Assembly: GCF_006970865.1 (NCBI RefSeq)
Contig: NZ_CP035503.1
Span: 3,237,001-3,301,000 of the forward strand
Reading direction: 5' to 3'
Length of the DNA stretch: 64,000 nucleotides
DNA from: Rhodoferax sediminis
GTDB taxonomy: Bacteria; Pseudomonadota; Gammaproteobacteria; Burkholderiales; Burkholderiaceae_C
Below are positions 19,941 to 35,234 of the stretch, piece by piece (position 1 is the stretch's first letter; each line of letters opens with the position of its first letter). The translations under genes were made by a program, and so were the position numbers. The notes below the pieces were generated by a model that did no database searches, was not told where the DNA came from, and saw only the letters and a list, made by a program, of their open reading frames with translations.

Positions 19941-20010
19941 ATGATGGTCCAGACGGTGACCGGACTGATCCCCCTCGAACGCTTCGGCCGCACGCTGATG
20001 CACGAGCACA
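19941..20010 (+). pseudogene. N-terminal stub of a phosphotriesterase-family gene
   Basis: From ATG 19941, preceded by a GGAAG ribosome binding site, the frame reads MMVQTVTGLIPLERFGRTLM followed by HEH, the signature start of phosphotriesterase-related metal hydrolases (QTVTG..., LMHEH with two metal-binding histidines). Similarity ends at about 20010, where it meets the start of a crotonase gene coming from the other strand. The rest of the gene is deleted. Confidence 0.7.
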
Positions 20011-20119
20011 GGGCTTCCCGCATGACGTTGCTCAGCGAGTTGCGCGTCTGCTCCGCAGCCAGGCGGATGACGCCCACAGAGCCGATGCGCTCGGTCTCTA
20101 GATATTGTTCCTGGTCCAT
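20003..20119 (-). pseudogene. N-terminal stub of an enoyl-CoA hydratase-family gene
   Basis: From ATG 20119 the minus-strand frame reads SVGVIRLAAEQTRNSLSNVM and then REAL, a crotonase N-terminus, and loses similarity at about 20010, where the phosphotriesterase stub begins on the other strand. It lies 18 bases downstream of the MaoC gene, so it was probably the last gene of the 12-kb operon before a deletion removed its body. Confidence 0.65.
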
Positions 20120-20137
20120 GCGCCGTGCCTCCCGGCC

Positions 20138-20608
20138 TCAAATCTTCGGGCGCCGCTTGAACATCAGCGTCGCCTTCATCTCCTGCACCACGCTACCGTC
20201 CTGCTTGACGCACTGGCGCTGGAAGCTCACCACGCCGCGGTCCGGCTTGCTGGTCTCCTTCTTCTCCACAACCTTGGCCACCACGCGGATGGTGTCGCCG
20301 TGCTTCACGGGGGCCAGCATGCGCCACTGGTCGATGCCCAGCAGGCCGATCAGCGTGCCGTCGTTGACCCCGCTGGCGTAGGTCAGGCCACCCATGATCC
20401 CGTAGATCAGCGGCCCGTGCGCGATCGGCTCGCCGAAGGGCGTGGTCTTGCAGTACTCGAAGTTGGTGTGCACCTCGTTGAAGTCGCCCGTGAGGCAGGC
20501 GAAGTTCACGATGTCGGTGGACGTGATGGTGCGCGCCGGGGTCACGATCTCCTCGCCGACCTCGAAGTCCTCGAAGTAGCGGCCGCGCGGCTGGACGTTG
20601 ATGTTCAT
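20138..20608 (-). CDS. MaoC-family hydratase (copy 1)
   Basis: A 156-residue single-hotdog MaoC protein with the complete hydratase motif: GDFNEVH with Asp42 and His47, then PIAHG. It should hydrate a 2-enoyl-CoA, as R-specific hydratases do. It is close to identical over most of its length to the protein at 52671-53144, the two differing mainly near the N-terminus. It is 23 bases downstream of the thiolase-like gene. In steroid side-chain degradation MaoC proteins (ChsH1/ChsH2) supply the hydroxyacyl-CoA to a DUF35/Ltp2 aldolase; the same partners are adjacent here, so a matching role is possible. Confidence 0.9.
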   Translation of the reverse strand: MNINVQPRGRYFEDFEVGEEIVTPARTITSTDIVNFACLTGDFNEVHTNFEYCKTTPFGEPIAHGPLIYGIMGGLTYASGVNDGTLIGLLGIDQWRMLAPVKHGDTIRVVAKVVEKKETSKPDRGVVSFQRQCVKQDGSVVQEMKATLMFKRRPKI

Positions 20609-20631
20609 GGCAATCCTTTCAGTCGGGACAC

Positions 20632-21810
20632 TCAGCCCTTGTCATTGGCCAGGATCAGGGTGCAGTGCGAGGACAGGATGCCGCCCTCGTTGTGCACCAG
20701 TGCCACCTCGGCGCCCTGCACCTGGCGCTCGCCGAGGCCGCCGCGCAGCTGGCGCACGGCCTCGACGATGCCGAACAGGCCGCCGGCGGCGCCGGCATGG
20801 GCGTGCGAGAGCATGCCGCCATGGGTGTTGACCGGAAGCTTGCCGCCGATGCGCGCATGGCCTTCGGCGAAGAAGGCGCCGCCCTCGCCCGGCTTCACGA
20901 AGCCCAGCTCCTCCAGCTCGATGATGGGGACGATGGTGAAGCAGTCGTAGAGCTGCGCGACGTCGACGTCCTGCGGGCCCAGGCCAGCCATCTGGTAGGC
21001 TGTCTTGCCGGACTCGGTGGCGCCGAACTCGGTGAGGCTGGGTGCGCACATCAGGTGTTCGTGCGTGTGGTACTCGCCGATGCCCTGCAAGTACACGGGC
21101 TTGGACTTCAAGTCACGTGCGCGCTCGGCGGAGGTGACGATGAAGGCGCCACCGGCGTCCGAAATCAGGCAGCAGTCCAGCATACCCAGGGGGTCGGCGA
21201 TCGGCTTGGCCTCCAGCACCTGCTCCAGCGTGATCGCCCTCTTCATGTGCGCGTTGGGGTGCCGCAGCGCGTGCGCACGCGTGTTCACCGCGACGTGCGC
21301 CAGTTGCTCGCGCTTCGTGCCGTACACGTGCATGTGCCGCTGCGCGATCATCGCGTAGTAGCCGGGAATCGACCCGCCGTAGGGCTGTTCGAAATACGGA
21401 TGGCCCACGGCCAGTAGCGCGGACAGCGCGGCGTCGCGCGTGAGACCGGTGGCCCGGTTCTCGCCGGCGCACACCAGGATGGTCTCGGCCTGGCCGGAGG
21501 CGATGGCTTCGGCCGCGTGCTTGAGCATCACCGCAGGGCTGGCGCCGCCGGAGACGACGGAGGCATTGAAGCGCGGCTTGACGCCCAGGTACTCGCACAA
21601 CACCGAACCGAGCATGAAGTACGGCTCGGTGAAGGAGTAGGCGGTGAGCACGCCGTCGATGTCCGACACCTTGAGGCCGGACTCGTCCAGCGCGCGCTTG
21701 GCGGCCTGCGCGTTCAGCCCCAGGCCAGTCATGTTGGGAACCTTGCCGATGTCGGATTCGCCAACACCGACGATGGCGATCTTGTTCTTCAGGGATGCGG
21801 GGGTCTTCAT
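20632..21810 (-). CDS. Thiolase-like (SCP2/Ltp2-type) protein without nucleophilic cysteine
   Basis: A 392-residue thiolase-superfamily protein. The N-terminal landmarks (IAIVGVGESD, ALDESGLKVSDIDGV) and the C-terminal HGGMLSHAHAGAAGG loop are typical of SCP2-like thiolases. Where thiolases have the CASG nucleophile the sequence reads VVSGGAS (about residues 85-91), with no Cys. That matches the non-thiolytic, Ltp2/DitF-type branch, some members of which work with DUF35 proteins as retro-aldolases. A DUF35 protein is encoded directly upstream. The start at 21810 is preferred over the ATG at 21816 because AGGAA then sits six bases away. Confidence 0.88.
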   Translation of the reverse strand: MKTPASLKNKIAIVGVGESDIGKVPNMTGLGLNAQAAKRALDESGLKVSDIDGVLTAYSFTEPYFMLGSVLCEYLGVKPRFNASVVSGGASPAVMLKHAAEAIASGQAETILVCAGENRATGLTRDAALSALLAVGHPYFEQPYGGSIPGYYAMIAQRHMHVYGTKREQLAHVAVNTRAHALRHPNAHMKRAITLEQVLEAKPIADPLGMLDCCLISDAGGAFIVTSAERARDLKSKPVYLQGIGEYHTHEHLMCAPSLTEFGATESGKTAYQMAGLGPQDVDVAQLYDCFTIVPIIELEELGFVKPGEGGAFFAEGHARIGGKLPVNTHGGMLSHAHAGAAGGLFGIVEAVRQLRGGLGERQVQGAEVALVHNEGGILSSHCTLILANDKG

Positions 21811-21821
21811 GGACATTTCCT

Positions 21822-22229
21822 TCAGGCGCGCTGGAACTGCGGTAGCAGGGCGCCGTCGCCCCGGTCTTCGAACGTCACCTTGACCCGGTCGCCGATCTTC
21901 ACCTCCAGGGCATCGGCACCCAGGATGTTGGCCATCATGCGCGGTCCCTCTTCCAACTCGATAAGCGCCACGACATAAGGAACGAGCGCGGTGAACGCCG
22001 GGTCCGAAGCGCGCCGCACGACGGTGAAGCTGTGGACCGTGCCAGTGCCCTTGGCGTCGACCCATTCCAGCTGGTCGGACCAGCATTGGGGGCACAGGTG
22101 CCGCGGCATGAAGTGCAGCTGACTGCAGGCCTTGCACTTGCGGATGACGAGCCGGCGCTCGCGCGCGGCGTCCCAATAAGGCTTCGAGTCGGCGTTGGCG
22201 ACGGGCGTGGGGAGGGTGTTTTGTTCCAT
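21822..22229 (-). CDS. DUF35 zinc-ribbon/OB-fold protein
   Basis: A 135-residue DUF35 protein. The zinc ribbon has C32, C35, C46 and C49, followed by an OB-fold segment with GTGTVHSFTVV. Such proteins bind thiolase-like partners and are thought to hold or channel the acyl-CoA; the DUF35 domain of ChsH2 is required by the aldolase Ltp2. Gene order here, DUF35 then Cys-less thiolase then MaoC, supports a protein complex. The start at 22229 is the only good ATG. Confidence 0.9.
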   Translation of the reverse strand: MEQNTLPTPVANADSKPYWDAARERRLVIRKCKACSQLHFMPRHLCPQCWSDQLEWVDAKGTGTVHSFTVVRRASDPAFTALVPYVVALIELEEGPRMMANILGADALEVKIGDRVKVTFEDRGDGALLPQFQRA

Positions 22230-22252
22230 GCTTTGTCTCGGGTTCTCCGGGC

Positions 22253-22349
22253 TCAGTTCAGCCGGCTGCGCGCGAGGGCGGCCGGCACGTTGCGCTGCAG
22301 GAAATCGACTGCGGCGCGTCCAAAAACATCATTGCGTTCGCCGGCCACC
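22253..22349 (-). pseudogene. Possible C-terminal gene fragment in an operon gap
   Basis: The 123-base gap between the ETF alpha gene and the DUF35 gene contains an open stretch ending RAAVDFLQRNVPAALARSRL before a TGA at 22253-22255. It looks like the amphipathic C-terminus of an enzyme (for example an alpha/beta-hydrolase) and may be the tail of a deleted gene. There is no start codon or other similarity. Confidence 0.3.
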
Positions 22350-22352
22350 TGC

Positions 22353-23285
22353 TTACAGCGTCTTCACCAGTTCCGGCACGGCCTGGAACAGGTCGGCCAC
22401 CAGGCCGTAGTCGGCAACGCTGAAGATCGGCGCTTCCTCGTCCTTGTTGATCGCGACGATCACCTTGGAGTCCTTCATGCCGGCCAGGTGCTGGATCGCG
22501 CCGCTGATGCCGCAAGCCACGTAGAGCTGCGGCGCGACGATCTTGCCGGTCTGGCCAACCTGCAGGTCGTTGGCCGCGTAGCCGGCGTCCACCGCGGCGC
22601 GGCTAGCACCGATGGCGGCGTTAAGCTTGTCGGCCAGGGGCGTCAGCACTTCCTGGAACTTCTCGGAAGAACCCAGAGCGCGGCCGCCAGAGACGATGAT
22701 CTTGGCGGCGGTCAGCTCCGGGCGATCGCTCTTGGCAATTTCCTGGCCCACGAACTTGCTCTTGCCGGCATCGGCGACGACAGGGACGGCCTCGACGGCC
22801 GCGTTGCCGCCGCTGGCCGGCGCGGGATCGAAGGCCGTGGTGCGGATAGTCAGCACCTTGACCTTGTCGCTGCTCTGCACGGTGGCGATGGCGTTGCCGG
22901 CGTAGATGGGTCGTTCGAAGGTGTATGCGCCGTGGATCTTGGTGACGTCGCTGACCTGCGCGACGTCGAGCTTGGCGGCCACGCGCGGAGCGGCGTTCTT
23001 GCCGCTGGCGGTGGCCGGGAACAGCACGTGCGTGTAGTCGCGCGCGATGGCCAGCACCTGGGCGGCCACGTTCTCGGCGAGGCCGTGTTCGAACTGCGCG
23101 CCGTCGGCGTGCAGCACCTTGGCGACGCCGGCGATCCGGGCGGCGGCCTTGGCGGCTTCCGCGGCATTCGCGCCGGCCACCAGCACGTGCACGTCGCCAC
23201 CGCAGGCAGCGGCCGCGGTGACGGTGTTCAGGGTCGCGGCCTTGATGGTCGCGTTGTCGTGTTCGGCAATGACGAGGGCGGCCAT
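22353..23285 (-). CDS. etfA: Electron transfer flavoprotein alpha subunit
   Basis: A 310-residue ETF alpha subunit. The C-terminal FAD domain shows [39 protein letters not shown] and [10 protein letters not shown]. It takes electrons from acyl-CoA dehydrogenases in the cytoplasm and passes them to ETF:quinone oxidoreductase. It is directly downstream of etfB (one base between them) and in the same operon as the acyl-CoA dehydrogenase at 25594, suggesting a dedicated electron carrier for the pathway. Confidence 0.97.
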
Positions 23286-23286
23286 C

Positions 23287-24042
23287 TCAGATCACCTTGG
23301 CTTCAGTTTTAAGTTTCACAACGAGGGTGGCCACGTCGGGCACCTTCACGCCGGCGCTGCGCTTGGCGGGCTCGGTCACCTTCAGCGTCTTCAGTCGCGG
23401 CTTCACGTCGACGCCCAGGTCCTCGGGCTTAACGACGTCCAGCTGCTTCTTCTTCGCCTTCATGATGTTGGGCAGCGTCACGTAGCGTGGCTCGTTCAGG
23501 CGCAGGTCGGTCGTGATCACCGCCGGTAGCGAGATTGAGAGTGTCTCCAGGCCGCCATCCACTTCCCTCGTGACCTTCGCCCGGCCGTCGGCCACTTCCA
23601 CCTTCGAAGCGAAAGTGGCTTGCGGCAGGTCCGCCAGCGCCGCCAGCATCTGGCCGGTCTGGTTGCAGTCGTCGTCGATCGCCTGCTTGCCGAGGATGAC
23701 GAGATCGGGCTGTTCCTTGTCGACCAGCGCTTTCAACAGCTTGGCCACGGCCAACGGCTCCAGCGCCTCGTCGGTCTGGACCAGGATGGCGCGGTCGGCG
23801 CCGATGGCCATCGCCGTGCGCAGCGTCTCCTGGCATTGCTGCACGCCGCAGGACACGGCGATGACCTCGCTGACCACGCCCTTTTCCTTCAGGCGGACCG
23901 CTTCCTCCACCGCGATTTCGTCGAAGGGGTTCATCGACATCTTCACGTTCGCTATGTCGATCCCGGTGCCGTCCGACTTGACCCGGACCTTCACGTTGAA
24001 GTCAACGACACGCTTGACGGCGACCAATGCTTTCACTGTCAT
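23287..24042 (-). CDS. etfB: Electron transfer flavoprotein beta subunit
   Basis: A 251-residue ETF beta subunit. Landmarks are [56 protein letters not shown] and the C-terminal [11 protein letters not shown] signature. It forms the AMP-binding partner of EtfA. The start at 24042 follows the stop of the upstream gene by one base. Confidence 0.97.
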
Positions 24043-24043
24043 G

Positions 24044-24694
24044 TCAGAACTGCTCCCTTGCTTTTGCGACCTGCGCGCGGCGTGCCGGCGCATAAGGTTC
24101 TTGACCCAGGGCCTCGTACAGGGCCTGCGTCACATCGTGGTGTTCTGCGAGCCCGGTGCGCTCCAGCAGCGAGATCGGTCCTTCGGGGTAACCGAGGCCC
24201 AGGCAAAGCGTCTTGTCCATGTCTTCGGCGCTGGCCAGCTTCTCGTCCAGGCGGCGCAGGGCAGCATTCAGGTAAGGGCGGATCAGGCGATCCACGATGC
24301 GGCCCGGGAAGTCGCCGCAGACCGCGACCTTCAGGCCGGCGGCCTCGAAGGCCGCCTTGGCCGCGGCGATCGCGCTGTCGCGCGTCTGCGGCTGACGCAC
24401 CAGCTCCACCAGCGGCGTCGGATCGGCGCGGCCCAGGCGGAAGCGGGCGAAGCCCACGACGTTGGCGCCTTCGTGGCCCTTTTGTTCGCCCGTGTGCACG
24501 CCCAGGCACTCGGTGCCCAGCTCGATGGCGACGAAGGGGCAGGCAGCCAGCTCGCCGGCCGCTGCAAAGGCAGCGCCGGCATCCTTGCCGGTGAAGACGC
24601 GTGACGCTCCCTTGGCGTCCGCCTGCTCGGTGAAGGCGTGGCTGGCGGGGAAGGAACGGCTGTCGCCGGAGGAAACGATTCGATAGTTGCTCAT
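24044..24694 (-). CDS. 3-hydroxyacyl-CoA dehydrogenase C-terminal-domain protein
   Basis: A 216-residue protein whose second half matches the C-terminal dimerisation domain of 3-hydroxyacyl-CoA dehydrogenases ([35 protein letters not shown]). The first part has no NAD-binding glycine motif and seems a decayed remnant of the preceding domain (TPLVELV is still visible). It may pair with the full-length enzyme encoded just upstream, whose stop overlaps its start region, or be a free second-half unit as in double-domain PaaH-type proteins. Activity on its own is unlikely. Confidence 0.75.
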
Positions 24695-24698
24695 GGGC

Positions 24699-25574
24699 TC
24701 AGGCTCCATACATCTTGCTGTCGGCGTACTTGAGGAGGCCGCGACCGGTCTTCTTGCCCAGCCAGCCGGCGGCGATCATGCGTTTCACGAGCGGCGGACA
24801 CGCCGCGCGCGGCTCGTTGGTCACGCCATACATCGCTTCGCACAGCAGCTTCTGCGTGTCCATGCCGACCAGGTCCAGCAGCTCCATCGGGCCCATCGCG
24901 TAACCCATCGCCGTCTTGATCGCCAGGTCGATGTCCGCGGGCTCTGCCACGCCCTGCTCCACCAGCCGGATGGCGTCGTTGTTGAACGGAATCAGGAAGT
25001 AATTCAGCACGAAACCGGGCGTGTCCTGGGTCTTCACCGGCTTCTGGCCCATGGCTTCGCAGGTGGCCCAGGCGCGGGAGAAGGTCTCCTCGCTGGTCGT
25101 CAGGCCGGGGGACATCTCGACCAGCTTCATCAGCTGCGCCGGCAGGCAGAAGTGCATGCCGACGAATTGGTCCGGTCGGCCGCAGCCGCCGGCAATCTCC
25201 GTGATGCTGATGGTGGAGGTGTTGCTGGCGAAGATGGCTTCGGGCTTGCAGATGGTATTGAGCTTGCCGAACAGGTCGTGCTTGACCGGCAGGCTCTCGA
25301 ACACCGCCTCGATCACCAGGTCGCAGTCGGCGAAGTCTTCCAGTTGGGTCGTGCCGCTCCAGGCGCCCATGATTTCGGGCAGCTTCTCCGCGGCCAGCTT
25401 GCCGCGCTCCACGCTCTTGCGAAGGAAGCCTTCGGTCTGCTTGCGCGCGCGCTCCAGCGCGTCCTGCTTCAGGTCGAACACGCGGGTCTTGAAGCCCGCG
25501 CGCGCGCAGACGATGGCAATGCCCGCGCCCATGGTGCCCGCGCCGGCAATGCCGATGGTCTTGATTTCGTTCAT
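24699..25574 (-). CDS. 3-hydroxyacyl-CoA (3-hydroxybutyryl-CoA-type) dehydrogenase
   Basis: A 291-residue single-unit 3-hydroxyacyl-CoA dehydrogenase. NAD motif GAGTMG is at residues 10-15, SNTS is present, and His141 is the catalytic base. The motif around it reads HFCLPA instead of the usual HFFNPP, so the Asn is a Leu, hinting at an altered substrate pocket. The C-terminal domain has DTPGFVLNYFLIPFNNDAI and AMGYAMGPMELLDLVG. It oxidises an (S)-3-hydroxyacyl-CoA formed by the crotonase of the same operon. Confidence 0.93.
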   Translation of the reverse strand: MNEIKTIGIAGAGTMGAGIAIVCARAGFKTRVFDLKQDALERARKQTEGFLRKSVERGKLAAEKLPEIMGAWSGTTQLEDFADCDLVIEAVFESLPVKHDLFGKLNTICKPEAIFASNTSTISITEIAGGCGRPDQFVGMHFCLPAQLMKLVEMSPGLTTSEETFSRAWATCEAMGQKPVKTQDTPGFVLNYFLIPFNNDAIRLVEQGVAEPADIDLAIKTAMGYAMGPMELLDLVGMDTQKLLCEAMYGVTNEPRAACPPLVKRMIAAGWLGKKTGRGLLKYADSKMYGA

Positions 25575-25593
25575 GCTTTCTCCTTGGAGGGCC

Positions 25594-26760
25594 TCAGCGT
25601 TGCAGGAAGCTGCGGCCGATCAGTTGGCGATGGACCTGGTTGGTCCCTTCCCAGATCTGGGTGATCTTCGCGTCGCGCATCAGGCGCTCGACGCGGAAGT
25701 CCTTGCAGTACCCATAGCCACCCAGCAGCTGTACGGCGTCGGTGGTGACGCGCATCGCGAGGTCGGTGGCGCGCATCTTCAGCAGCGAGGCTTCGATGCC
25801 GAAGTCCTTGGCGCCGGCGTCGACCCAGCTCGCCACCTGCCACAGCCAGCTCTCGACCAGCGCGAGTTCGGACGCCAGGTCGGCGACCATGAACTGGATG
25901 CCCTGGAACTCAAGAATCTTGCGGCCGGACTGCCTGCGCTCGTTGATGTAGGCCACGCTGTCCTCGAACGCGGCCCGGGCGATGCCCAGGGCATGCGCCG
26001 CCACGCTGGGGCGCGACTTGTTCAGCGAGGCGAACAGGATCTTCAGGCCATCGCCGGGGTTGCCCAGTAGGTTAGCGCGCGGGACGCGGCAGTTGTCGAA
26101 GGCCAGGGTGGCGGTGCTCGACGCGCGCGTGCCCATCTTGTCCTCCAGCCGCACCACCGACAATCCCGGCGTGCCCTTCTCCAGCACCAGCACCGAGATA
26201 CTTTCCTTGGCACCGGCGATGCCTTCCCATTTGCCGAACAGCAGGTAGAGGTCGGCCACGTCGCCATTGGTGATGAAGGTCTTGCCGCCGTTTACGACGA
26301 TCTCGCCGCCCTCTTCGCGGAACGACGTGCGCATGCCGGTGGCGTCGGAGCCGGCGCCCGGCTCCGTGATCGCCAGCGCGCCCAGGCCGCCTTCGGCGAT
26401 GCGCGGCAGCAGGCGCTGCTTCTGCTCCTCGGTACCCCAGTCGATCAGGGGCTTCATGCCATGGTAGTTGGTGGCCCAGATAATGCCCGTGGCCGCGCAA
26501 GCCTTGCTGATCTCGCGCGCGCAGGCCAGGTAGGCCGTATACGACATCTGGGCGCCGCCGTAGGCCTCGGGGATGAACATCGCGTTCAGCCCGAGCTCGT
26601 TGATGGCCTTGACGTTCTCCCAGGGAAACTCCGCCGTGCGGTCGAAGTGCTCGGCACGTGGCGCGATCTGCTCGCGCGCCAGGATCTGCACGCTCTCGAG
26701 CAGCATCTTTTCTTCGTCCGCGAGCGCGATGCGGGAGTCGAGTCGTTCCAGGATGTTCAT
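25594..26760 (-). CDS. Acyl-CoA dehydrogenase
   Basis: A 388-residue acyl-CoA dehydrogenase. Signatures are ALAITEPGAGSDATGMRTS, FITNGDVADLYLL, QLLGGYGYCKDFRVERLMRD and IWEGTNQ, with the catalytic Glu371 in the position typical for short- and medium-chain enzymes. Electrons should go to the EtfBA pair encoded in the same operon. In the cyclohexanecarboxylate pathway the comparable enzyme is AliB, which fits the operon's content, though sequence alone does not fix the substrate. An eight-base gap separates it from the SDR gene. Confidence 0.93.
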   Translation of the reverse strand: MNILERLDSRIALADEEKMLLESVQILAREQIAPRAEHFDRTAEFPWENVKAINELGLNAMFIPEAYGGAQMSYTAYLACAREISKACAATGIIWATNYHGMKPLIDWGTEEQKQRLLPRIAEGGLGALAITEPGAGSDATGMRTSFREEGGEIVVNGGKTFITNGDVADLYLLFGKWEGIAGAKESISVLVLEKGTPGLSVVRLEDKMGTRASSTATLAFDNCRVPRANLLGNPGDGLKILFASLNKSRPSVAAHALGIARAAFEDSVAYINERRQSGRKILEFQGIQFMVADLASELALVESWLWQVASWVDAGAKDFGIEASLLKMRATDLAMRVTTDAVQLLGGYGYCKDFRVERLMRDAKITQIWEGTNQVHRQLIGRSFLQR

Positions 26761-26768
26761 GGTGCTCT

Positions 26769-27521
26769 CTAGTGTGCGATGCCTTGACCGCCGTCGATGT
26801 AGATGGTCTCGCCCGTGAGGAAGCCTCCGGCGGGCGTGAAGAGGGAGGCCACCAGCGCGCCGACGTCGGCGGCGGTGCCCGGCTCGCGGCCCGGGATGCG
26901 TTTGTCCAGGTAGGCCCGCAGCGGCCCGCCCGCAGCCATGGCGTCGGCGTTGAGGTCGGTAACGATGTAGCCGGGCGCCACGTCCATCACACGGATGCCC
27001 TTGCCGGCCCATTCCACCGCCAGGCAACGCGTGATGGCACCCACCGCGGCCTTGCTGGCGCAGTACGCGAGGTTGCGCTTCACGCCCAGCTTGTCGAAGA
27101 AGGAGCCGATGTTGACGATCATCCCGCCGCCGGTCGCCACCAGGTGCGGGTACGCCGCCTGGCAGGCGCTCACCACCGAGGTGGCATTGGTGTCCATCAC
27201 CTCCTGCCAGTGCTCCAGTGAGATCTCCGCCGACGGACCGTCCAGGTGCACGCCCGCGTTGTTCACCAAGCCCTTGATGCGCCAGCCTTCATCGGCCAGC
27301 TTGCGCATGGCGGCGGCGAGCGCCGCCGGGTCGGTGACATCGGCCTTGGCCCCGATCCAGCGCGCGGACACTTCCGCCGGCACCCCCGGGCAGGCCGGCA
27401 GCGCGCCGGAGCGCGAGAAGCAGGCCACGTGCCGGCCCTGCTGCGCCAGCGCCAGCGCGATGGCGGCGCCGATGCCCCGGCTGGCGCCAGTGACGACGAT
27501 GCATTCCCGTTGTTCACTCAT
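26769..27521 (-). CDS. Short-chain dehydrogenase/reductase
   Basis: A 250-residue SDR. The cofactor motif TGASRGIG (11-18), NNAG (87-90) and the catalytic Ser140, Tyr153 and Lys157 are all present. It most likely oxidises a hydroxyacyl-CoA or a ring alcohol. In the alicyclic acid pathway BadH, also an SDR, makes 2-ketocyclohexanecarboxyl-CoA, the substrate of BadI; a BadI-like protein is encoded in this operon. Its start overlaps the stop of the upstream crotonase gene by eight bases. Confidence 0.9.
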   Translation of the reverse strand: MSEQRECIVVTGASRGIGAAIALALAQQGRHVACFSRSGALPACPGVPAEVSARWIGAKADVTDPAALAAAMRKLADEGWRIKGLVNNAGVHLDGPSAEISLEHWQEVMDTNATSVVSACQAAYPHLVATGGGMIVNIGSFFDKLGVKRNLAYCASKAAVGAITRCLAVEWAGKGIRVMDVAPGYIVTDLNADAMAAGGPLRAYLDKRIPGREPGTAADVGALVASLFTPAGGFLTGETIYIDGGQGIAH

Positions 27522-28278
27522 CGCGGAACTCCGCCTTGCGTTTCTCGACGAAGGCCTGCATGCCTGCCTCGGCGTCGCGGGTGCGATAGGCCAGCGTCGA
27601 CAGGTCAGCCTCCACGCGCAGGCCCTCGTGCAGCGGCCCGTCCAGCGCACGCTGCACCGCCTCGCGGGCGAACTGCAGCGCGAGCAGGCCGTGGCCGCTG
27701 AACTCGCGGGCATAGGCCTTGGCGGCGGCCAGGCCGGGCGCCTGGACGATGCGGTTGACGAGGCCGATCGCGAGCGCCTCCTCGGCATTCACCGTGCGGC
27801 CGGTCATCACCAGCTCCAGGGCGCGGCCCGGTCCGACCAGGCGCGGCAGGCGCTGCGTGCCGCCGTAGCCGGGGATCAGGCCGAGCTTCACTTCGGGCAG
27901 GCCGAACTTGGCATGGGGCAGCGCCAGGCGCAGCGTACAGGCCAGCGCCAGCTCGCAGCCGCCGCCGAAGGCGAAGCCGTTGACCAGCGCAATGGACGGA
28001 ATGGGCAGGCGATCGAGCTGCGCGAACACCGCCTGGCCCAGCTGCGCACCTTCGCGCTGCGCGGCCAGCCCGCGCTGCTGCAGTTCCTTGATGTCGGCGC
28101 CGGCGCAGAAGGCCTTTTCGCCTTCGCCGGTGACGATCAACGCGCGAGCCTTGGAGTGGCCCGCTTCCTTGATGCGCTCGCCGATCTGGGCGATCAGCTC
28201 GAAGCTGAGCGCGTTCAGCGCCTGCGGCCGCCGGAGGGTGAGGACGGCGAATTCCTCGTCGTGGGTGAGTTCTATCAT
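27514..28278 (-). CDS. Enoyl-CoA hydratase (canonical crotonase)
   Basis: A 254-residue enoyl-CoA hydratase with both catalytic glutamates in place: Glu109 in GGGCELALA and Glu129 in FGLPEVKLG, 20 residues apart. The oxyanion segment FCAGADI is at 57-63. It hydrates a 2-enoyl-CoA, which could be a ring-conjugated one as for BadK. The ATG overlaps the stop of the ligase gene (ATGA), indicating translational coupling. Confidence 0.93.
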   Translation of the reverse strand: MIELTHDEEFAVLTLRRPQALNALSFELIAQIGERIKEAGHSKARALIVTGEGEKAFCAGADIKELQQRGLAAQREGAQLGQAVFAQLDRLPIPSIALVNGFAFGGGCELALACTLRLALPHAKFGLPEVKLGLIPGYGGTQRLPRLVGPGRALELVMTGRTVNAEEALAIGLVNRIVQAPGLAAAKAYAREFSGHGLLALQFAREAVQRALDGPLHEGLRVEADLSTLAYRTRDAEAGMQAFVEKRKAEFRDE

Positions 28279-29960
28279 TTGGCAGTGGCGGGCGCGCGGT
28301 AACGCACCGGTTCGGGTTGCAGGCGGCCGCTGGCGACCCATTGCACGAGCTCGCGCTTCAGGATCTTGCCGCTGGCGGTCAGGGGGAACTCCGTCACCAC
28401 GGCGTAGAACTCGGGCATGTCGAACTTGGACAGGCCTTCCTTCGCCAGGTGCTGCAGGATCTCGTCCGGCGCGGGCGACTTGCCCTCGTGGCAGATGATG
28501 GCCAGGCAGACCTTCTCGCCCAGTCGCTCGTCGGGCACCCCGAAGGCCGCTGCCTTCTTGACCGCGGCGTGCCGGTGCGCGTATTCCTCGATGTGGGCGG
28601 GGTGGATGTTGTGGCCACCGCGAATGATCAGGTCCTTCTTGCGGCCCACGATCTGCAGGTTGCCCTGCTCGTCGAAGCGACCGAGGTCGCCGCTCAGGAA
28701 CCAGCCGCTGGAGTTGAAGGAGTTCTCCGTGGCCGACTGGTTGTTGAAGTAGCCAAGCATCAGCACGCCGCCGCGGCCGCCGATCTCGCCCACTTCGCCG
28801 GGGCCGGGTTCCAGGTCCGGCTTCTCCTGGTTCCACAGCCGCACCTCGTAGCCGGCGCAGGCCTTGCCGCAGGTGCTGGTGATCACCTCGACCGGATCAT
28901 TGGGTTTGGTGTACTGGTGCGAGCCGTTCTCGGTCATGCCGTAGACGTTCTGCGGCTTGGCGCCGAGCGACAGCAGGCGGCGCGCCACCTCGGTGGGAAT
29001 CGGCGTGCCCGCCATGTAGAACACCTTCACGGCCCCCAGCTTCTTGAGCCCGCGCTTGTCCGCCTCCTGCAGCAGGTCCATGGCGTGCGTGGGCACGCCC
29101 ATCACGTAGGTGGCGCCGGTCTGCTCGATCCAGTCCAGGGCACCAACACCCGCGGAGGCGTCGTGCATCACCAGTTCGCAGCCGGCCACCAGCGCCTGGT
29201 CCAGTGCCACGGTGCCGATGTGGTGGCTCATGGGGCTGAGCGTGAGCAGCACGGTCGCGGCGTTGTGGCCCCAGTCGGCGACCATCGCCCGGGAATTGGC
29301 CAGCAGCGTGTTGTCGCTGTGCATCACCCCCTTCGGCGTGCCGGTGGTGCCGCTGGTGAAGGCCAGGTAGACGATCTGGTCCGGGTGCGTGCTGGCAGGC
29401 GGCGCCGGCACGCGCGGCGCTGGGCCGGCCTGCGGCATGGCGCGGGTACCGGCCGGAATGGCGGCAGCAGGTGTGCGCAGTGCCGGCAACGCATACACGC
29501 CCTTCATGTGGCCCAGCTCCGCGGCGCGCGCGAAGATATCTGCCGTCTTCGCATCCGAGCCGTAGCCGGGCTGCGTGAACAGGGCGCGGCACTCGATGCG
29601 GTCCAGCAGGGTCACGATCTCCGCGACCGTGTAGTTCTGGTGTAGCGAGGGGTTGCAGACGTAGCCGTTGCGCGAGCAGGCCAGCAGGATGACCACGCTC
29701 TCCAGGCGGTTGGGCAGCCAGATCGATACGCGGTCGCCGCGGCGCAGGCCGGCCTCGTGCAGGTCCGCTGCCAGTGCGTCGACCCAGGCGACGAGCGTGC
29801 TCCAGGTGAGGCGGCGCGCGCTGTCGCGCACCGCATAGGCGCTGCCGCGCTCGGTCGCATGCCGGCGCGCCAGGGAATACAGCGTGTCCGTCTGCCAGAT
29901 GCCCGAGAGATAGTTCTCCCGGGCCCGGGCCGGATCATGCAAGGTCAGCAGGTGCGACAT
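28275..29960 (-). CDS. Acyl-CoA ligase (AMP-forming)
   Basis: A 561-residue ANL-superfamily acyl-CoA synthetase. The AMP motif TSGTTGTPKG, then YGMTENG (A5), SGDLGRFDEQGNL and GRKKDLIIRGG (A8), and the C-terminal TASGKILKRELV with the catalytic lysine, are all present. It activates a carboxylic acid to its CoA ester with ATP. With the CoA-transferase at the head of the operon it gives the pathway two ways to load CoA. The cyclohexanecarboxylate counterpart would be AliA. AGGAGGATT precedes the start at 29960. Confidence 0.93.
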   Translation of the reverse strand: MSHLLTLHDPARARENYLSGIWQTDTLYSLARRHATERGSAYAVRDSARRLTWSTLVAWVDALAADLHEAGLRRGDRVSIWLPNRLESVVILLACSRNGYVCNPSLHQNYTVAEIVTLLDRIECRALFTQPGYGSDAKTADIFARAAELGHMKGVYALPALRTPAAAIPAGTRAMPQAGPAPRVPAPPASTHPDQIVYLAFTSGTTGTPKGVMHSDNTLLANSRAMVADWGHNAATVLLTLSPMSHHIGTVALDQALVAGCELVMHDASAGVGALDWIEQTGATYVMGVPTHAMDLLQEADKRGLKKLGAVKVFYMAGTPIPTEVARRLLSLGAKPQNVYGMTENGSHQYTKPNDPVEVITSTCGKACAGYEVRLWNQEKPDLEPGPGEVGEIGGRGGVLMLGYFNNQSATENSFNSSGWFLSGDLGRFDEQGNLQIVGRKKDLIIRGGHNIHPAHIEEYAHRHAAVKKAAAFGVPDERLGEKVCLAIICHEGKSPAPDEILQHLAKEGLSKFDMPEFYAVVTEFPLTASGKILKRELVQWVASGRLQPEPVRYRAPATAK

Positions 29961-29985
29961 GGCGAATCCTCCTTCGTGCAAGAGC

Positions 29986-30765
29986 TCAGTGGCCGAACTT
30001 GTCGGCGTCCGGCTTGCGGCGCTGCGCGAAGGAAGCAGCCAGCTCCTTGGACTCCTTCGTTTCCAGGTAGCCGCGCAGCAACAGGTCGTGCGCCATGCGC
30101 GACAGGCCCGAGACGCCGCCGTGGCGCGCATTGAAGGCGCCCTTGATGGAGGCGAGAGCGAAGGCGCCCCGATCCGCGATCTCCAGCGCGATCTTGCGGG
30201 TGAACTCCCACAGCTCGGCGTCGGGGACGACGTGATTGACCAGGCCCCAATCCAGCGCCTCGCGCGCCGTCAGTTTCGGATTGCGGTACCACATTTCCTT
30301 CGCGCGCTTCTTCCCGATGATGTCTTCCAGGTACCAGGTGCCGTAGCCGCCGTCGAAGCTGCCGACCATGGGGCCGACCTGGCGGAACACGGCGCTTTCC
30401 TTGGCGATGGTGATGTCGCACACCACGTGCAGCACGTGGCCGCCGCCGACGGCGAAGCCGTTGACCATGGCGATCACCGGCTTTTGCAGACGGTCGATGG
30501 ACTCGTACATCTCCAGCGTCGGCAGCGTGCCGGCGTAGAGCATCGAGTCCTCCATGCCGTCCTTTTTGCCGCCGGTGCAAAAGACCTTGTCGCCCGCGCC
30601 GGTGATGATGAGGACGCGGGTGCGCGTCTCGCGCCGGATCTCGTTGATGCAATCGCGGATCTCGTGGCACATGCGCTCGGTAAACATGTTGCCGTCTTTG
30701 GGACGGTTCAGCGTGAGGATGCCGAGGGGGCCTTCTTCACGGTAGATGATTTCCTGGAACTGCAT
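29986..30765 (-). CDS. BadI/MenB-like crotonase, candidate ring-cleaving hydrolase
   Basis: A 259-residue crotonase of the 1,4-dihydroxynaphthoyl-CoA synthase / 2-ketocyclohexanecarboxyl-CoA hydrolase branch. The N-terminus MQFQEIIYREEG, the segment GAGDKVFCTGG, VGGGHVLHVVCDITI and GSFDGGYGTWYL resemble BadI and MenB. The two hydratase glutamates are replaced, and Ser136 and Asp138 of GSFDGG take the place used by MenB. No menaquinone genes are nearby, while a ligase, acyl-CoA dehydrogenase, hydratase and SDR are, so a hydrolytic C-C cleavage of a cyclic 2-oxoacyl-CoA is the better guess. Confidence 0.85.
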   Translation of the reverse strand: MQFQEIIYREEGPLGILTLNRPKDGNMFTERMCHEIRDCINEIRRETRTRVLIITGAGDKVFCTGGKKDGMEDSMLYAGTLPTLEMYESIDRLQKPVIAMVNGFAVGGGHVLHVVCDITIAKESAVFRQVGPMVGSFDGGYGTWYLEDIIGKKRAKEMWYRNPKLTAREALDWGLVNHVVPDAELWEFTRKIALEIADRGAFALASIKGAFNARHGGVSGLSRMAHDLLLRGYLETKESKELAASFAQRRKPDADKFGH

Positions 30766-30777
30766 GGTGTCTTCCTC

Positions 30778-32022
30778 TCAGATGATTTGTTGGTTGCGGA
30801 GTTGGTCGATCTGCGTGGCGTCGCAAGCCAGCCACGTGCGCAGTATCTGCTCGGTATGCGCCCCGAGCTTCGGGGGCGGGACGGCCGTGCCTTCGGTGCG
30901 GCCGTCGAAGCGGATGCCCAGGCCCACCTGCGGGATCTCGCCGTCGGGGCCCTGGGTGCGGTAAATGAAGCCGGACTCGTGCAGCGCCGGGTCCTGCGCC
31001 ACTTCGTCCACGCGCTGGATCGGGCCGGCCGGCACGCGGGCGTTGACCAACAGGTCCAGCCAATGGGCGCGCGGCTGGGTCTTCAGCAGCTCGCCGATGA
31101 CCTTGACGATCTCCTCGCGCTTGGCGCGGCGATCCTTGTTGCTGGCGTACGCCGGGTTGGCGCCGACTTCCGGGCACCCCACGGCCTCCCAGAAGCGCTT
31201 CCAGATCGCGTCGTTGCCCAGCCCCAGGGTCATGGGAGCGTCAGCCGTGTCGAACACCTGGTAAATCGCGATGACGCTGTCGCGCCCGCCCTGGCGCCGC
31301 GCCAGTTCGCCGGAACCCAGGTAGGGCATCAGCTTGGGCGCCATGAAGCGCGACATGCTCTCCACCATGGAAATGTCGATGTCGCAGCCCTTGCCCTCGC
31401 GCTCGCGCCGCAGCAGCGCGGCCAGCACCGCCATCGCGGCGTCGTTGCCGGCCAGCAGGTCGGCGGCGGGCGTGCCTACTTTCTGCGGCCCGTTCTCAGG
31501 CTCGCCGGTCAGGTCCATCACGCCGGAATAGCCCTCGGCGATCAGGTCGTAGCACGGCAGGTCGGCACGGCTGCCCTGCAGGCCGAAGCCGCTGATGGAG
31601 ACGTGGACGAGCCGCGGGTTCAGCGGCCGCAGCGTCGCGGCATCGAGGCCCAGCTTGCGCTGCGCACGCGCCACCAGGTTCAGCAGGATCACGTCGCACT
31701 GCGCCACCAGCTTCTTCAGGACCTCCCGGCCCTGCGGCGCGGCGATGTCGAGCGTGAGGCTCTGCTTGCCCCGGTTGACGCTCATGAACCAGAGCGACTC
31801 GCCGTGCAGGAACGGGGGTCCCCAGGCGCGCGCGTCGTCGCCGCCCTTGGGTTTTTCGATCTTGACGACGGTGGCACCCATGTCGGCCAGCAGTTGGCCG
31901 GCGTAGGGCCCCGCGACCGAGGAGGTGAGGTCGAGGACCTTCACGCCTGCGAGCAGGTCGAGCGCGGGCGCAGACCTCGCGGGGAGGCCACGCAGGGGGA
32001 TTCGGGATTCTGGCGTAAACAT
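30778..32022 (-). CDS. Family III CoA-transferase, first gene of the sigma-54 operon
   Basis: A 414-residue CaiB/BaiF-type CoA-transferase with the catalytic Asp159 in LPCYDLIAEG. It heads the 12-kb operon. The ATG at 32022 lies only 13 bases from the -12 box of a consensus sigma-54 promoter, so the transcript would begin about two bases before the start codon; either the mRNA is nearly leaderless or translation begins at a later non-ATG codon, since the first 20 residues are not typical of the family. It transfers CoA to the pathway's starting acid or between intermediates. Confidence 0.9.
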   Translation of the reverse strand: MFTPESRIPLRGLPARSAPALDLLAGVKVLDLTSSVAGPYAGQLLADMGATVVKIEKPKGGDDARAWGPPFLHGESLWFMSVNRGKQSLTLDIAAPQGREVLKKLVAQCDVILLNLVARAQRKLGLDAATLRPLNPRLVHVSISGFGLQGSRADLPCYDLIAEGYSGVMDLTGEPENGPQKVGTPAADLLAGNDAAMAVLAALLRREREGKGCDIDISMVESMSRFMAPKLMPYLGSGELARRQGGRDSVIAIYQVFDTADAPMTLGLGNDAIWKRFWEAVGCPEVGANPAYASNKDRRAKREEIVKVIGELLKTQPRAHWLDLLVNARVPAGPIQRVDEVAQDPALHESGFIYRTQGPDGEIPQVGLGIRFDGRTEGTAVPPPKLGAHTEQILRTWLACDATQIDQLRNQQII

Positions 32023-32034
32023 TGCATGGTTTTA

Positions 32035-32050
32035 TGCAAGCTGCGTGCCA
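32035..32050 (-). promoter_or_regulatory. Sigma-54 (RpoN) promoter, consensus -24/-12
   Basis: On the minus strand the sequence TGGCAC, five bases (GCAGC), TTGCA matches the sigma-54 consensus TGGCAC-N5-TTGCW exactly, with the obligatory GG and GC. It points at the first gene of the 12-kb operon. A sigma-54 activator gene starts 135 bases away on the other strand. Confidence 0.88.
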
Positions 32051-32099
32051 CCTCGCCAGACCCTCCGGAAACCGTGAAAAGGTGCGATTCCGCGCGCTT

Positions 32100-32184: not shown

Positions 32185-33909
32185 ATGGAAACACAAGACA
32201 CAAGCGCGAAGGACACTTCCCTGAACGACCTTCGCGGCGTTCTGGTACTCGGGCCCGACGGCAAGCAGGTCGCGGCCAGCGGAATCGCGCTTCAGCCCGA
32301 GATTGCGAACCGCATCACCAGCGGCTGGCAGGACGTCCGCCGCCGCCAGCGCCGCCTGTTTTCGGTGGAGGCGCCCGATGGCGACCCCGTGGTCGTGGTG
32401 GTCCTGCCTTCTTCGGATGCCACCGTGTTCGTGGCCATGGAACGGGACAGCCGCGATGCCCTGTTCGAGTTCGTCGGCGCCGTGGATTTCGCGGGGGACA
32501 TCCTCGCCCACTTCCTCACCAACCCGTTCGAGGCGCTGGCCGTGGTCGATCGCGACGCGATCATCCGCTATATGAGCCCGGTGCACGAGCGCTTCTTCGG
32601 CCTGCGGCCCGGGGCCGGCGTCGGCCGCCACACGACCGAGGTGATCGAGAACTCGCGCTTGGACCGTGTGGTGGAAACCGGCAAGTCGGAGATCGGCCTG
32701 CTGCACGAGATGCGCGGCGTCACCCGCGTGGTGGCGCGCCACCCCATCCGCAACAGCCGCGGCGAGTTGGTGGCCGCCATCGGCCAGATCATGTTCAAGG
32801 GGCCGGAGCAGTTGCAGGCGCTGTCCAGCGAGGTCTCCAAGCTCAAGTCCGAAGTGGCCTTTTACCGCCGCGAGCTGAGCGATCTGCGCAACCGCAGCTA
32901 CGGTCTGGACCAGATGGTCGGCGACAGCTTGGCCATGCAGCGCCTGAAGCAGCAGATCGTGAAGGTGGCGCCGTTGGACGTGCCGGTGCTTCTCACCGGC
33001 GAGAGCGGCACCGGCAAGGAACTCGCCGCGCACGCCATCCACAAGCTGAGCCCGCGGCGCGACGGCACCATGGTGATGGTGAACGCGGCCGCCCTGCCGG
33101 CCACGCTGGTGGAGAGCGAACTGTTCGGCTATGAGGCTGGCTCCTTTACTGGCGCCGAGCGCAAGGGCCGCAAGGGCAAGATCGAGCAGGCCGACGGCGG
33201 ATCGCTGTTCTTCGACGAGGTGGGCGACACGCCGGCTGAGGTTCAGGTGAAGCTGCTGCGCGTCCTGCAGGACGGCACGTTCCAGCGGGTGGGCGGGAAC
33301 GACCTGCGGCGCTCGAACTTCCGCCTGATCAGTGCCAGCAACCGCAACTTCGAGGCAATGATCGCCGAGGGCACCTTCCGCCTCGACCTGTTCTACCGCA
33401 TCGGCGGGGTGACGATCCGTCTGCCGGCGCTGCGCGAGCGCCTTGAGGACATCCCGCTGCTGGCCGACCTGGCCTTGAAGCAGTTCGCCGACCGCCACGG
33501 ACAGCGTGCGAAGAAGCTCTCGGACGATGCCCTCGTGCTCCTGCAGAGCCAGCGCTGGCCCGGCAACGTGCGCCAGTTGATGCACACGGTGGAGCGCGCC
33601 GCGATCTTCGGCGAAGGCGATGTGATCGAGCCCAGCGACTTCGGCATCATCGACGCCGAGCCGGGGGATACCCTGGCCACGCCCGTGCCCCAGGCAACCG
33701 ACAGCTTGCCGGCGCCCCTGATTTCCGGTGCGCGCCAACCCATGCTTGTCAGCAGCGCGGTGGAGCAGGTGGAAGAGCAGCTGATCCGCCAGGCCATGGC
33801 GAAGTTCAACGGCAACAAGAAGCGCGTGGCCGCCGAACTGGGGATTTCGCGCTCCTACCTGTACAAGCGCCTGGCGCAGATGGGTTTCGGCGCCGAAGCG
33901 GAAACCTGA
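32185..33909 (+). CDS. Sigma-54-dependent transcriptional activator with PAS domain
   Basis: A 574-residue enhancer-binding protein. A PAS-like sensor domain spans about residues 110-200 (VVDRDAIIRYMSPVHERFFG), then a coiled stretch (206-235), the AAA+ domain with Walker A GESGTGKE (272-279), Walker B FFDE (343-346), and a C-terminal Fis-type helix-turn-helix (KKRVAAELGISRSYLYKRL). The sigma-54 contact loop reads GSFTGA (319-324) instead of GAFTGA; Ser is a tolerated but uncommon change. It lies divergent from the operon with the sigma-54 promoter and is its obvious regulator, probably sensing an acid or acyl-CoA through the N-terminal part. Confidence 0.95.
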   Translation: METQDTSAKDTSLNDLRGVLVLGPDGKQVAASGIALQPEIANRITSGWQDVRRRQRRLFSVEAPDGDPVVVVVLPSSDATVFVAMERDSRDALFEFVGAVDFAGDILAHFLTNPFEALAVVDRDAIIRYMSPVHERFFGLRPGAGVGRHTTEVIENSRLDRVVETGKSEIGLLHEMRGVTRVVARHPIRNSRGELVAAIGQIMFKGPEQLQALSSEVSKLKSEVAFYRRELSDLRNRSYGLDQMVGDSLAMQRLKQQIVKVAPLDVPVLLTGESGTGKELAAHAIHKLSPRRDGTMVMVNAAALPATLVESELFGYEAGSFTGAERKGRKGKIEQADGGSLFFDEVGDTPAEVQVKLLRVLQDGTFQRVGGNDLRRSNFRLISASNRNFEAMIAEGTFRLDLFYRIGGVTIRLPALRERLEDIPLLADLALKQFADRHGQRAKKLSDDALVLLQSQRWPGNVRQLMHTVERAAIFGEGDVIEPSDFGIIDAEPGDTLATPVPQATDSLPAPLISGARQPMLVSSAVEQVEEQLIRQAMAKFNGNKKRVAAELGISRSYLYKRLAQMGFGAEAET

Positions 33910-33910
33910 A

Positions 33911-35047
33911 TCAGCCCTGGAACGAAGCGGGATCCGCTTCTCCCAACGCCGGCGCACCGCCTCCGCCATCGTGCCGCAAGGCGGGCGCGATCGGCAGCGG
34001 CAGCGCCGGGATCTCCCGGCCGTCGCCGCTCGCAAGGCGGGCCTGGAACAGCCCGCGCTCGCGGAAATGCGGCGTCTGCACGGCCTCCTGCAGCGATTTC
34101 ACCACCGAGACGCAGGCATCCACGCCGGCGAAGCGCTGCAGCCACTCGTCGGCCGTGCGCGTGACGATGATGGCGGCGACGGCGTCACGCGTACGCGCCG
34201 CATTGCTGTCGTCCAGCAGCTGCGGCGCCTCCAGCACGCGCAGGAAGTTCTTCCAGAACTTTTGCTCCAGCGGCGCGGCCGCCAGGTAGCGCCCGTCCCC
34301 GGTGCGGTAGACCTGATAGCGCGCCGTGCCGCCCGTGACGAGGTCGCCGCCCGGCGTGGGCCATTCTCCCGCCGCGAAACCGTTGCCCAGGCCCCAGTAC
34401 ACCAGGGGGAACAGGTTGTCGGCCATGGCGACGTCGATGAAGCAACCGGGGCCCCCGGCGTCGCGGGTGCGCAACGCGAGCAGGATGTTCATCATCGCCG
34501 GGTACGCGCCCGCCGCAAGGTCCGCCACCAGCACGTTGGGCAGGCCGGGGGCGCCATCGGCTCCGGCCGTCAGCGCCATCAGCCCCGTCTCGGCCTGGTA
34601 GTTGAGGTCGTGGGCTGCGACGGCGGCAAGCGGCCCGTCCTGGCCCCAGCCGGTGATGGCGCAGTAGACCAGGCCGGGGTTGAGGATGCGCATCGCCTCG
34701 TAGCCCAGGCCCAGGCGGTCCATCACGCCCGGACGGAACTGCTCGATCAGCACGTCGGCATCGCGCACCAGCTCGATGGCCTGCCGCACGCCGGCGGGAT
34801 CCTTCAGGTCCAGCGCGACCGAGCGCTTGCCCTGGTTGAGCAGCGCGAAGTTCACGCTGTCGTCGCCGAATTTCGGCACGTACGATCGCATCTCGTCGCC
34901 GCGGCCCGGCCGCTCGATCTTGATCACTTCCGCGCCGGCCTGCGCCAGCAGCAGGCTGCACATCGGCCCGGGCAGCAGCGTGCTGAAGTCGACGACACGG
35001 ATGCCGGCCAGGGGGGCGCGTCGCGCCGGAGTGATTTGCGTGTTCAT
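33911..35047 (-). CDS. CaiB/BaiF family protein, alpha-methylacyl-CoA racemase-like
   Basis: A 378-residue family III CoA-transferase fold protein. The active-site segment AAHDLNYQAETG carries His146 and Asp147, the pattern of alpha-methylacyl-CoA racemases (GHDINY), rather than the xGxD pattern of the other CoA-transferases here. Epimerising a 2-methyl-branched acyl-CoA is therefore as likely as CoA transfer. Its stop is one base from that of the convergent sigma-54 activator gene. Confidence 0.85.
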   Translation of the reverse strand: MNTQITPARRAPLAGIRVVDFSTLLPGPMCSLLLAQAGAEVIKIERPGRGDEMRSYVPKFGDDSVNFALLNQGKRSVALDLKDPAGVRQAIELVRDADVLIEQFRPGVMDRLGLGYEAMRILNPGLVYCAITGWGQDGPLAAVAAHDLNYQAETGLMALTAGADGAPGLPNVLVADLAAGAYPAMMNILLALRTRDAGGPGCFIDVAMADNLFPLVYWGLGNGFAAGEWPTPGGDLVTGGTARYQVYRTGDGRYLAAAPLEQKFWKNFLRVLEAPQLLDDSNAARTRDAVAAIIVTRTADEWLQRFAGVDACVSVVKSLQEAVQTPHFRERGLFQARLASGDGREIPALPLPIAPALRHDGGGGAPALGEADPASFQG

Positions 35048-35234
35048 GCGATGCCCGCTGCAAGCGCTATGCCAGGGCATTCTGCCGCAGGGCAGGCTCA
35101 ACATGTTCGCGGCGGGGACACGGCGTGTCAAGCGCACACACAGTCGGACGCAGACACGGGGGGCGCAGCAGGCGAAGGTGCTCGGCACGCACCTTGCATC
35201 ACCAGGCGTTCCGACCATTCCAAGGAGTTTCCCC

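Follow-up and report, generated by a model that had tools for sequence, protein, structure and literature searches.

A putative sigma-54-controlled operon of Rhodoferax sediminis that joins a recurring alicyclic-acid-type core to an aldolase-like tail

Which acid would be degraded, and by which final cleavage, by the products of a long one-strand gene run in Rhodoferax sediminis? The window analyzed here, a stretch of 64,000 nucleotides (contig NZ_CP035503.1, positions 3,237,001 to 3,301,000), carries on its minus strand 13 intact genes (20138-32022) and a crotonase stub, according to open reading frames (ORFs), Pfam and NCBIfam (Table 1). In order of reading, they encode a CoA-transferase (CoAT1), a BadI-like protein, an acyl-CoA ligase (LIG), an enoyl-CoA hydratase (ECH), an SDR dehydrogenase, an acyl-CoA dehydrogenase (ACAD), a 3-hydroxyacyl-CoA dehydrogenase (HBD) and its half-size partner (hHBD), EtfB, EtfA, a DUF35 protein, a thiolase-fold protein (THL) and MaoC. 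All genes that the initial annotation had named are present on this strand, co-directional and mostly gap-free. The run is suggested, with moderate confidence, to be a catabolic operon under sigma-54 control, whose substrate would be an alicyclic carboxylic acid different from plain cyclohexanecarboxylate; this acid probably leaves a branched chain, and its degradation would be finished by retro-aldol cleavage through DUF35-THL. Overall, a real, recurring core of alicyclic-acid type is followed by a lineage-specific, aldolase-like tail, and the whole is a variant of known pathway kinds.

The core, defined as the first eight genes (CoAT1 to hHBD), occurs in Burkholderiales, Azospirillum, Aminobacter and Salipiger. 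Of 7997 proteins scored with the BadI-like protein as query, 7947 were at E<=1e-30, and hHBD yielded 3990 at E<=0.001; the near-top relatives named among the matches listed (120 per search) were from Burkholderiales, with Variovorax, Polaromonas and Ramlibacter as examples. A genome scan seeded with hHBD led to 14 loci, while the BadI-like search of plasmids gave 78 records at E<=1e-40, including MenB and BadI (60 listed); ten among the first 16 were read, and nine others besides. At E<=1e-50, hHBD was present in 15 of 399 genomes of the order sample and 3 of 200 of the family sample, with the own genome in both. The locus gene table comprises 32 sequences, and the following counts are based on the 30 with hHBD, window included; the partial loci L009 and L013-L015 were excluded, L020 and L076 are apparently one contig although both are in the table, and the counts are lower bounds because some stretches and contigs end early. 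The full eight-gene core was found in 16 loci and the activator in 15, being absent from the Celeribacter, Salipiger and Ancylobacter plasmids. A second CoA-transferase (CoAT2) directly follows hHBD in 19 loci, and an NADPH:quinone oxidoreductase-type gene (NQO) lies further on in 17. Behind the core, a second PaaH-like dehydrogenase (>=37%) is carried by eight loci, a classical thiolase by five, and EtfBA-DUF35-THL-MaoC by three, namely the window, L011 and L012. The tail thus appears to have been exchanged, with beta-oxidation-type genes in some loci and a hydratase/aldolase-like module in the window lineage. As for synteny of the whole gene order, which the initial annotation had wished to see searched, the core recurs, whereas its union with the aldolase-like tail was seen in these three of the 30 loci.

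The BadI-like protein scored 205.8 bits against the BadI model TIGR03210 (cut-off 467.6) and also stayed below the cut-offs of the MenB models, with 212.8 of 342.7 bits for TIGR01929 and 238.6 of 380 for NF005637, its best NCBIfam score. The 21 window-type rows of a 35-row tree formed their own clade (100/100) inside the MenB/BadI group, beside MenB and BadI and apart from the ECH of the operon and from annotated BadI; the deep order among groups is open in this tree, and long branches were flagged. The Ser-x-Asp motif, the active-site motif of the MenB/BadI group, is conserved as GSFD in all six window-type rows of a 15-row alignment, while the MenB GGD position reads GGK, GGR or GGQ in four proteobacterial rows, GGE in L034 and GGD in L035. 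Judged by sequence, the protein is neither BadI nor MenB and represents a third clade beside both. The earlier naming as a BadI/MenB-like hydrolase therefore stands as to the group and the separation from the hydratase, and does not extend to BadI proper.

AliA, AliB, BadK, BadH and BadI constitute the cyclohexanecarboxylate degradation set, with which the operon had at first been compared. Membership in this set was not borne out: LIG reached 257.1 bits against AliA (cut-off 792.3) and is 30-32% identical to the protein most like it in the bad/ali loci L089-L091, ACAD reached 156.8 bits against AliB (cut-off 575.35), and neither BadK for ECH nor BadH for SDR was among the 25 best matches listed. 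Moreover, one plasmid of Salipiger abyssi bears an annotated badI-aliB-aliA-pcaF cluster and another the window-type core, and of the 15 genomes with the core in the 399-genome order sample, four also encode canonical BadI (E<=1e-90). The core thus looks like a parallel pathway, and its substrate is probably other than plain cyclohexanecarboxylate, a different substrate being the simplest reading of such coexistence. It was also considered that the operon might degrade plain cyclohexanecarboxylate with ordinary beta-oxidation, the DUF35-THL-MaoC tail being incidental and the thiolase coming from elsewhere in the genome. This is in keeping with reaction types equal to those of bad/ali, with two PcaF-like thiolases (67 and 68% identity to a PcaF) encoded elsewhere in the own genome, and with the lack of canonical BadI there at E<=1e-90, but the low scores and the coexistence of both systems speak against it, and we consider it unlikely.

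HBD and hHBD together are collinear with single chains of Celeribacter and Salipiger (504 and 499 residues), with 54-57% identity over 493-507 columns, and are 32% identical to the PaaH-like protein of Aminobacter from the same cluster type. The half-size partner reported earlier is present, while its identity is corrected: by collinearity, hHBD is the C-terminal half of a PaaH-type enzyme that is split over two genes. It lacks GxGxxG and is probably not catalytic. The same collinearity ruled out a novel subunit. The AlphaFold model of hHBD has a mean pLDDT of 71 (72-96 per block in the first 120 residues), and in Foldseek it matched 3-hydroxyacyl-CoA dehydrogenases, although with a TM of only ~0.4.

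Control of the operon by sigma-54 is supported by a mismatch-free -24/-12 box, a divergent activator and the recurrence of the box ahead of relatives. Of 15 sequences inspected, window counted in, 14 have a GG-N10-GC box ahead of the first gene; the region taken from the fifteenth, L032, belonged to the wrong regulator and gave no box. The box lies 28-33 bp from the first gene in 13 sequences and 55 bp in L039, and in L018 TCGC replaces TTGC. Within the window, TGGCAY-N5-TTGC occurs six times against 0.4 expected, a number reached in none of 100 shuffles, while the C-only pattern with one mismatch allowed shows a weak excess (13 against 7.1 expected; reached in 2 of 100 shuffles). The genes are closely packed, with gaps of 12 nt (CoAT1 to BadI-like), 25 (BadI-like to LIG), 8 (SDR to ACAD), 19 (ACAD to HBD), 4 (HBD to hHBD), 1 (hHBD to EtfB), 1 (EtfB to EtfA), 123 (EtfA to DUF35), 11 (DUF35 to THL), 23 (THL to MaoC) and 18 (MaoC to stub), and overlaps of 4 nt (LIG/ECH) and 8 nt (ECH/SDR). 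Two terminator-like sites were seen in 19700-32300, against 7.1 expected.

The residues of THL were mapped on the PDB rows 4u4e, 9myr, 6ok1 (Ltp2), 7yvy and 7pxp. At the column of the nucleophilic Cys, THL has Gly89, as do 4u4e, 9myr and 6ok1, while 7yvy and, one column off, 7pxp have Cys; at the HDAF His column, Tyr288 is shared with the same three rows, and 7yvy and 7pxp have His. At the GHP His column, THL has His338; 4u4e, 7yvy and 7pxp likewise have His, whereas 9myr has Gln and 6ok1 has Tyr344. All three residues are invariant across 12 THL rows. Accordingly, THL lacks both the Cys and the HDAF His of classical thiolases and BbsAB, and carries the equivalent of Tyr294, which together with Tyr344 is catalytic in Ltp2. 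In a tree of 18 rows, Cys-less and Cys-bearing proteins were separated (97/96, with very long PDB branches), so that THL, as first described, is a Cys-less protein standing apart from the two Cys-bearing thiolases. The adjoining DUF35 gene carries both ChsH2 domains, as expected of an Ltp2 partner. Among the 11 THL loci fetched at >=71% identity, DUF35 is in the stretch in all and MaoC in 10 (not L073), although DUF35 is 3-6 kb away from THL in L069, L071 and L072. Instead of an aldolase, THL-DUF35 might be some other acyl-CoA enzyme, be it a thiolase that uses an unusual nucleophile, an enzyme of condensation reactions or a protein that binds lipids, and the tail might have been brought behind the core by rearrangement. 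The GHP His retained as in thiolases would suit this idea, as would 4u4e, which has the same Gly/Tyr/His set and is named merely 'Thiolase'; yet the double substitution, the grouping with Ltp2 and other Cys-less proteins and the company of DUF35 and MaoC make it improbable. An AlphaFold model of THL (mean pLDDT 42) was set aside.

From what was seen by sequence, namely the gene set, the recurring box, the clades, the loss of the thiolase Cys and the differing tails, we infer the substrate, the step order and the chemistry, including retro-aldol activity, as follows. LIG and/or CoAT1 would convert the acid to its CoA ester, and ACAD (with electrons passed to EtfBA), ECH, and SDR and/or the split HBD/hHBD would lead to a cyclic beta-keto-acyl-CoA, which the BadI/MenB-type enzyme would open hydrolytically to a dicarboxylyl-CoA. 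After a dehydrogenation, hydration by MaoC would then lead to a beta-hydroxyacyl-CoA (a tertiary one where the beta-carbon bears a substituent), and DUF35-THL would cleave it to a ketone or aldehyde and acetyl-CoA. For this stage, some related loci have a classical thiolase together with a PaaH-like dehydrogenase. The late beta-oxidation-type genes behind the core in some of these loci suggest that the tail acts at a late step, and we favor its use in cleaving a beta-branched dicarboxylyl-CoA after ring opening. They also count against the reverse order, in which MaoC and THL-DUF35 would trim an alicyclic side chain before the core opens the ring; this order, which we hold to be rather doubtful, would agree with the action of Ltp2 and bile-acid aldolases on side chains and with an aldehyde dehydrogenase gene behind a box-bearing GMC oxidoreductase gene in the window. 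The alternatives overlap, and their likelihoods are not meant to total one. The initial outline of ring opening followed by chain shortening is retained, with a substrate that is probably not plain cyclohexanecarboxylate and a tail seen in the three loci named above. More tentatively, a third family of Dieckmann-type ring-opening hydrolases could mark a widespread, often plasmid-borne pathway for a natural alicyclic acid, whose thiolytic end would have been replaced by a hydratase/DUF35-aldolase end in one Burkholderiales lineage, for beta-branched (e.g., terpenoid) ring-opened products.

Several observations weigh against a late aldolase step coupled to this core. At E<=1e-140, THL occurs in 7 of the 399 order genomes and 3 of the 200 family genomes. 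Core and THL share five of the 399 genomes (of 15 and 7; p=7e-7) and three of 158 genera (of 7 and 4; p=2e-4), while canonical BadI and THL, taken as a control, share five genomes (of 19 and 7; p=3e-6) and three genera (of 13 and 4; p=2e-3). As the control nearly equals the core, co-occurrence shows no specific partnership, and it was dropped as proof of one. Nine THL loci away from the core (L067-L073, L085, L088) lack a BadI-clade protein in their stretches. His338 takes the place of the catalytic Tyr344 of Ltp2. Finally, the own genome encodes, besides the PcaF-like thiolases, two PaaH-like chains (49 and 57%), one PaaH-like/PcaF-like pair being adjacent at 3.395-3.398 Mb, so that thiolysis in trans is possible; the earlier phrase 'without an ordinary thiolase' is thus valid for the operon and not for the genome.

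Apart from the three core loci with the tail, L092 was the only locus among those read in which a BadI-group protein adjoins an aldolase-like module. In this Paraburkholderia sprentiae plasmid (3286-9777), a BadI-group hydrolase lies near an OB-fold protein, a Cys-less thiolase, MaoC, ACAD, a CoA-transferase and SDR, and the locus is an independent pairing of both modules (its THL is 42% identical). A recurrent BadI-THL neighborhood in L068 and L071 was rejected, since the crotonases there are without the Ser-x-Asp motif; they score nearer the MenB/BadI profile than the hydratase profile. In L088 (5133-18538), DUF35-THL-MaoC lies beside a ThDP enzyme (acetolactate synthase/IolD-related) and a ketosteroid-dehydrogenase-like flavoprotein upstream, and in L067 (1540-7625) beside a similar ThDP enzyme recognized by eye, perhaps as another alicyclic route. 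The ACAD after MaoC in L088 best matched glutaryl-CoA dehydrogenase in NCBIfam (330 bits, below the cut-off of 470), which would fit 3-substituted glutaryl-CoA.

Table 1. Coordinates of the operon, its boxes and other features in the window
Feature	Position	Strand	Basis or remark
CoAT1, family III (CaiB) CoA-transferase	30778..32022	-	Pfam, NCBIfam
BadI/MenB-type crotonase-fold protein, third clade, with GSFD	29986..30765	-	NCBIfam, tree, alignment
LIG, AMP-forming acyl-CoA ligase	28275..29960	-	NCBIfam, Pfam
ECH, enoyl-CoA hydratase	27514..28278	-	NCBIfam
SDR dehydrogenase	26769..27521	-	NCBIfam
ACAD, acyl-CoA dehydrogenase	25594..26760	-	NCBIfam, Pfam
HBD, 3-hydroxyacyl-CoA dehydrogenase, N-terminal half of split PaaH-type enzyme	24699..25574	-	NCBIfam, Pfam, collinearity
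hHBD, C-terminal half of split PaaH-type enzyme, without GxGxxG	24044..24694	-	collinearity
EtfB	23287..24042	-	NCBIfam, Pfam
EtfA	22353..23285	-	NCBIfam, Pfam
DUF35 protein, ChsH2-type zinc ribbon and OB fold	21822..22229	-	domain matches
THL, Cys-less thiolase-fold protein, Gly89/Tyr288/His338	20632..21810	-	domain matches, PDB-row alignment
MaoC hydratase	20138..20608	-	domain match
Crotonase stub, N-terminal residues only	19990..20119 (lower end approximate)	-	named by eye
DUF2889 protein	17168..17734	-	relatives adjoin MaoC in L011, L012
Sigma-54 -24/-12 box of main operon, TGGCACGCAGCTTGC	32036..32050	-	pattern match, no mismatch
Divergent sigma-54-dependent activator, PAS + AAA+ + Fis-type HTH	32185..33909	+	Pfam, NCBIfam
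CoAT2 CoA-transferase	33911..35038	-	47-67% identity to CaiB after hHBD in other loci
Sigma-54-type box ahead of CoAT2, TGGCATAGCGCTTGC	35060..35074	-	pattern match
One-mismatch box ahead of NQO, CGGCACGCACCTTGC	35183-35197		pattern match
NQO, NADPH:quinone oxidoreductase-type enzyme	35235..36224	+	54% identity to Cupriavidus-cluster NQO
Aldehyde dehydrogenase	38840-40345		behind GMC oxidoreductase
GMC oxidoreductase	40367-42010		
Sigma-54-type box ahead of GMC oxidoreductase	42024..42038	-	pattern match
TGGCAY-N5-TTGC box	42157	+	points towards 42298
TGGCAY-N5-TTGC box	44260-44274		inside ORF, ahead of likely alpha/beta hydrolase start
TGGCAY-N5-TTGC box	48817-48831		no clear gene; near IS240-type transposase ORF

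Given the further boxes in the window, the operon may belong to a regulon that extends over more of this region. CoAT2 and NQO are core-associated genes relocated in the window, and both have similar boxes; CoAT2 is beyond the regulator in the window, L011 and L012, and NQO follows it in the window as well. The GMC and aldehyde dehydrogenase genes were tried as conserved neighbors of the core, which a search of four genomes did not support: GMC relatives of 66-71% were found in two of them (47% in the other two), one being ~38 kb away from the core, provided that C7 and the L012 contig are the same, and the second lying on a contig of different number. An MFS transporter gene (36283-37467) is 63-64% identical to those beside the L009 core and beside the L088 DUF35-THL-MaoC cluster. 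The L009 stretch (4607-10651) possesses regulator, ligase, hydratase, HBD and hHBD, with no close BadI-like, CoAT1, SDR or ACAD found in it. The BadI-like proteins of L034 and L035 (Rhodococcus and Streptomyces plasmids) are more remote (50-52%), and two full-length HBDs stand there instead of HBD and hHBD.

A DUF2889 gene, which comes next after MaoC in L011 and L012 and further downstream in the window, may belong to the tail module; a second DUF2889 protein is encoded at 15683-16309 (+). By eye, the EtfA-DUF35 gap (22230-22352) resembles a small-ORF remnant, the ORF being apparently whole in L012. The crotonase stub, without Pfam or NCBIfam match, collides head-on in 19941-20120 with an ORF of the plus strand, whose first ~24 residues look by their motif like the start of an amidohydrolase/phosphotriesterase, and their meeting point is perhaps a deletion or recombination junction.

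If the proposal is true, genes would be named for a widespread route that opens alicyclic acids, with the third BadI/MenB clade and the split PaaH pair as its marker. It would also suggest how, in aerobic bacteria, an aldolase end could take over from a thiolase end to deal with branched products, with bearing on terpenoid, naphthenic-acid and steroid-like waste.

Among known systems, bad/ali shares with the operon the reaction types of ligase, acyl-CoA dehydrogenase, hydratase, SDR and ring-opening crotonase-fold hydrolase, and the canonical Salipiger cluster also has a PcaF-like thiolase and Etf. However, the best matches of the window proteins in bad/ali loci are 25-44% identical, their scores are below curated cut-offs, the regulator is a sigma-54 activator in the window as against MarR genes in those bad/ali loci that were read, and the split dehydrogenase, CaiB CoA-transferases, NQO and aldolase-like tail are its own. 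MenB resembles the BadI-like protein in fold, GSFD motif and top NCBIfam score, and differs by cut-off, clade and GGD in place of GGK; no men gene was seen among the window proteins scanned. PaaH is matched by the collinearity of HBD and hHBD with single chains of ~500 residues, whereas the window enzyme is made of two genes and is 32% identical to the PaaH-like protein of its own cluster type. The benzoylsuccinyl-CoA thiolase BbsAB (7pxp) likewise combines a DUF35-type subunit with a thiolase fold, and the bbs operon also encodes CaiB transferases, ACAD, hydratase and SDR, but BbsB retains the Cys and HDAF His that THL has lost. Ltp2-ChsH2(DUF35) (6ok1), a steroid side-chain aldolase that works with MaoC-type hydratases, has the same assembly of DUF35, Cys-less thiolase fold and MaoC, and both have Gly in the column of the nucleophilic Cys and Tyr in that of Tyr294; in contrast, THL has His at the Tyr344 column and sits with BadI/MenB-type, ligase and ACAD genes.

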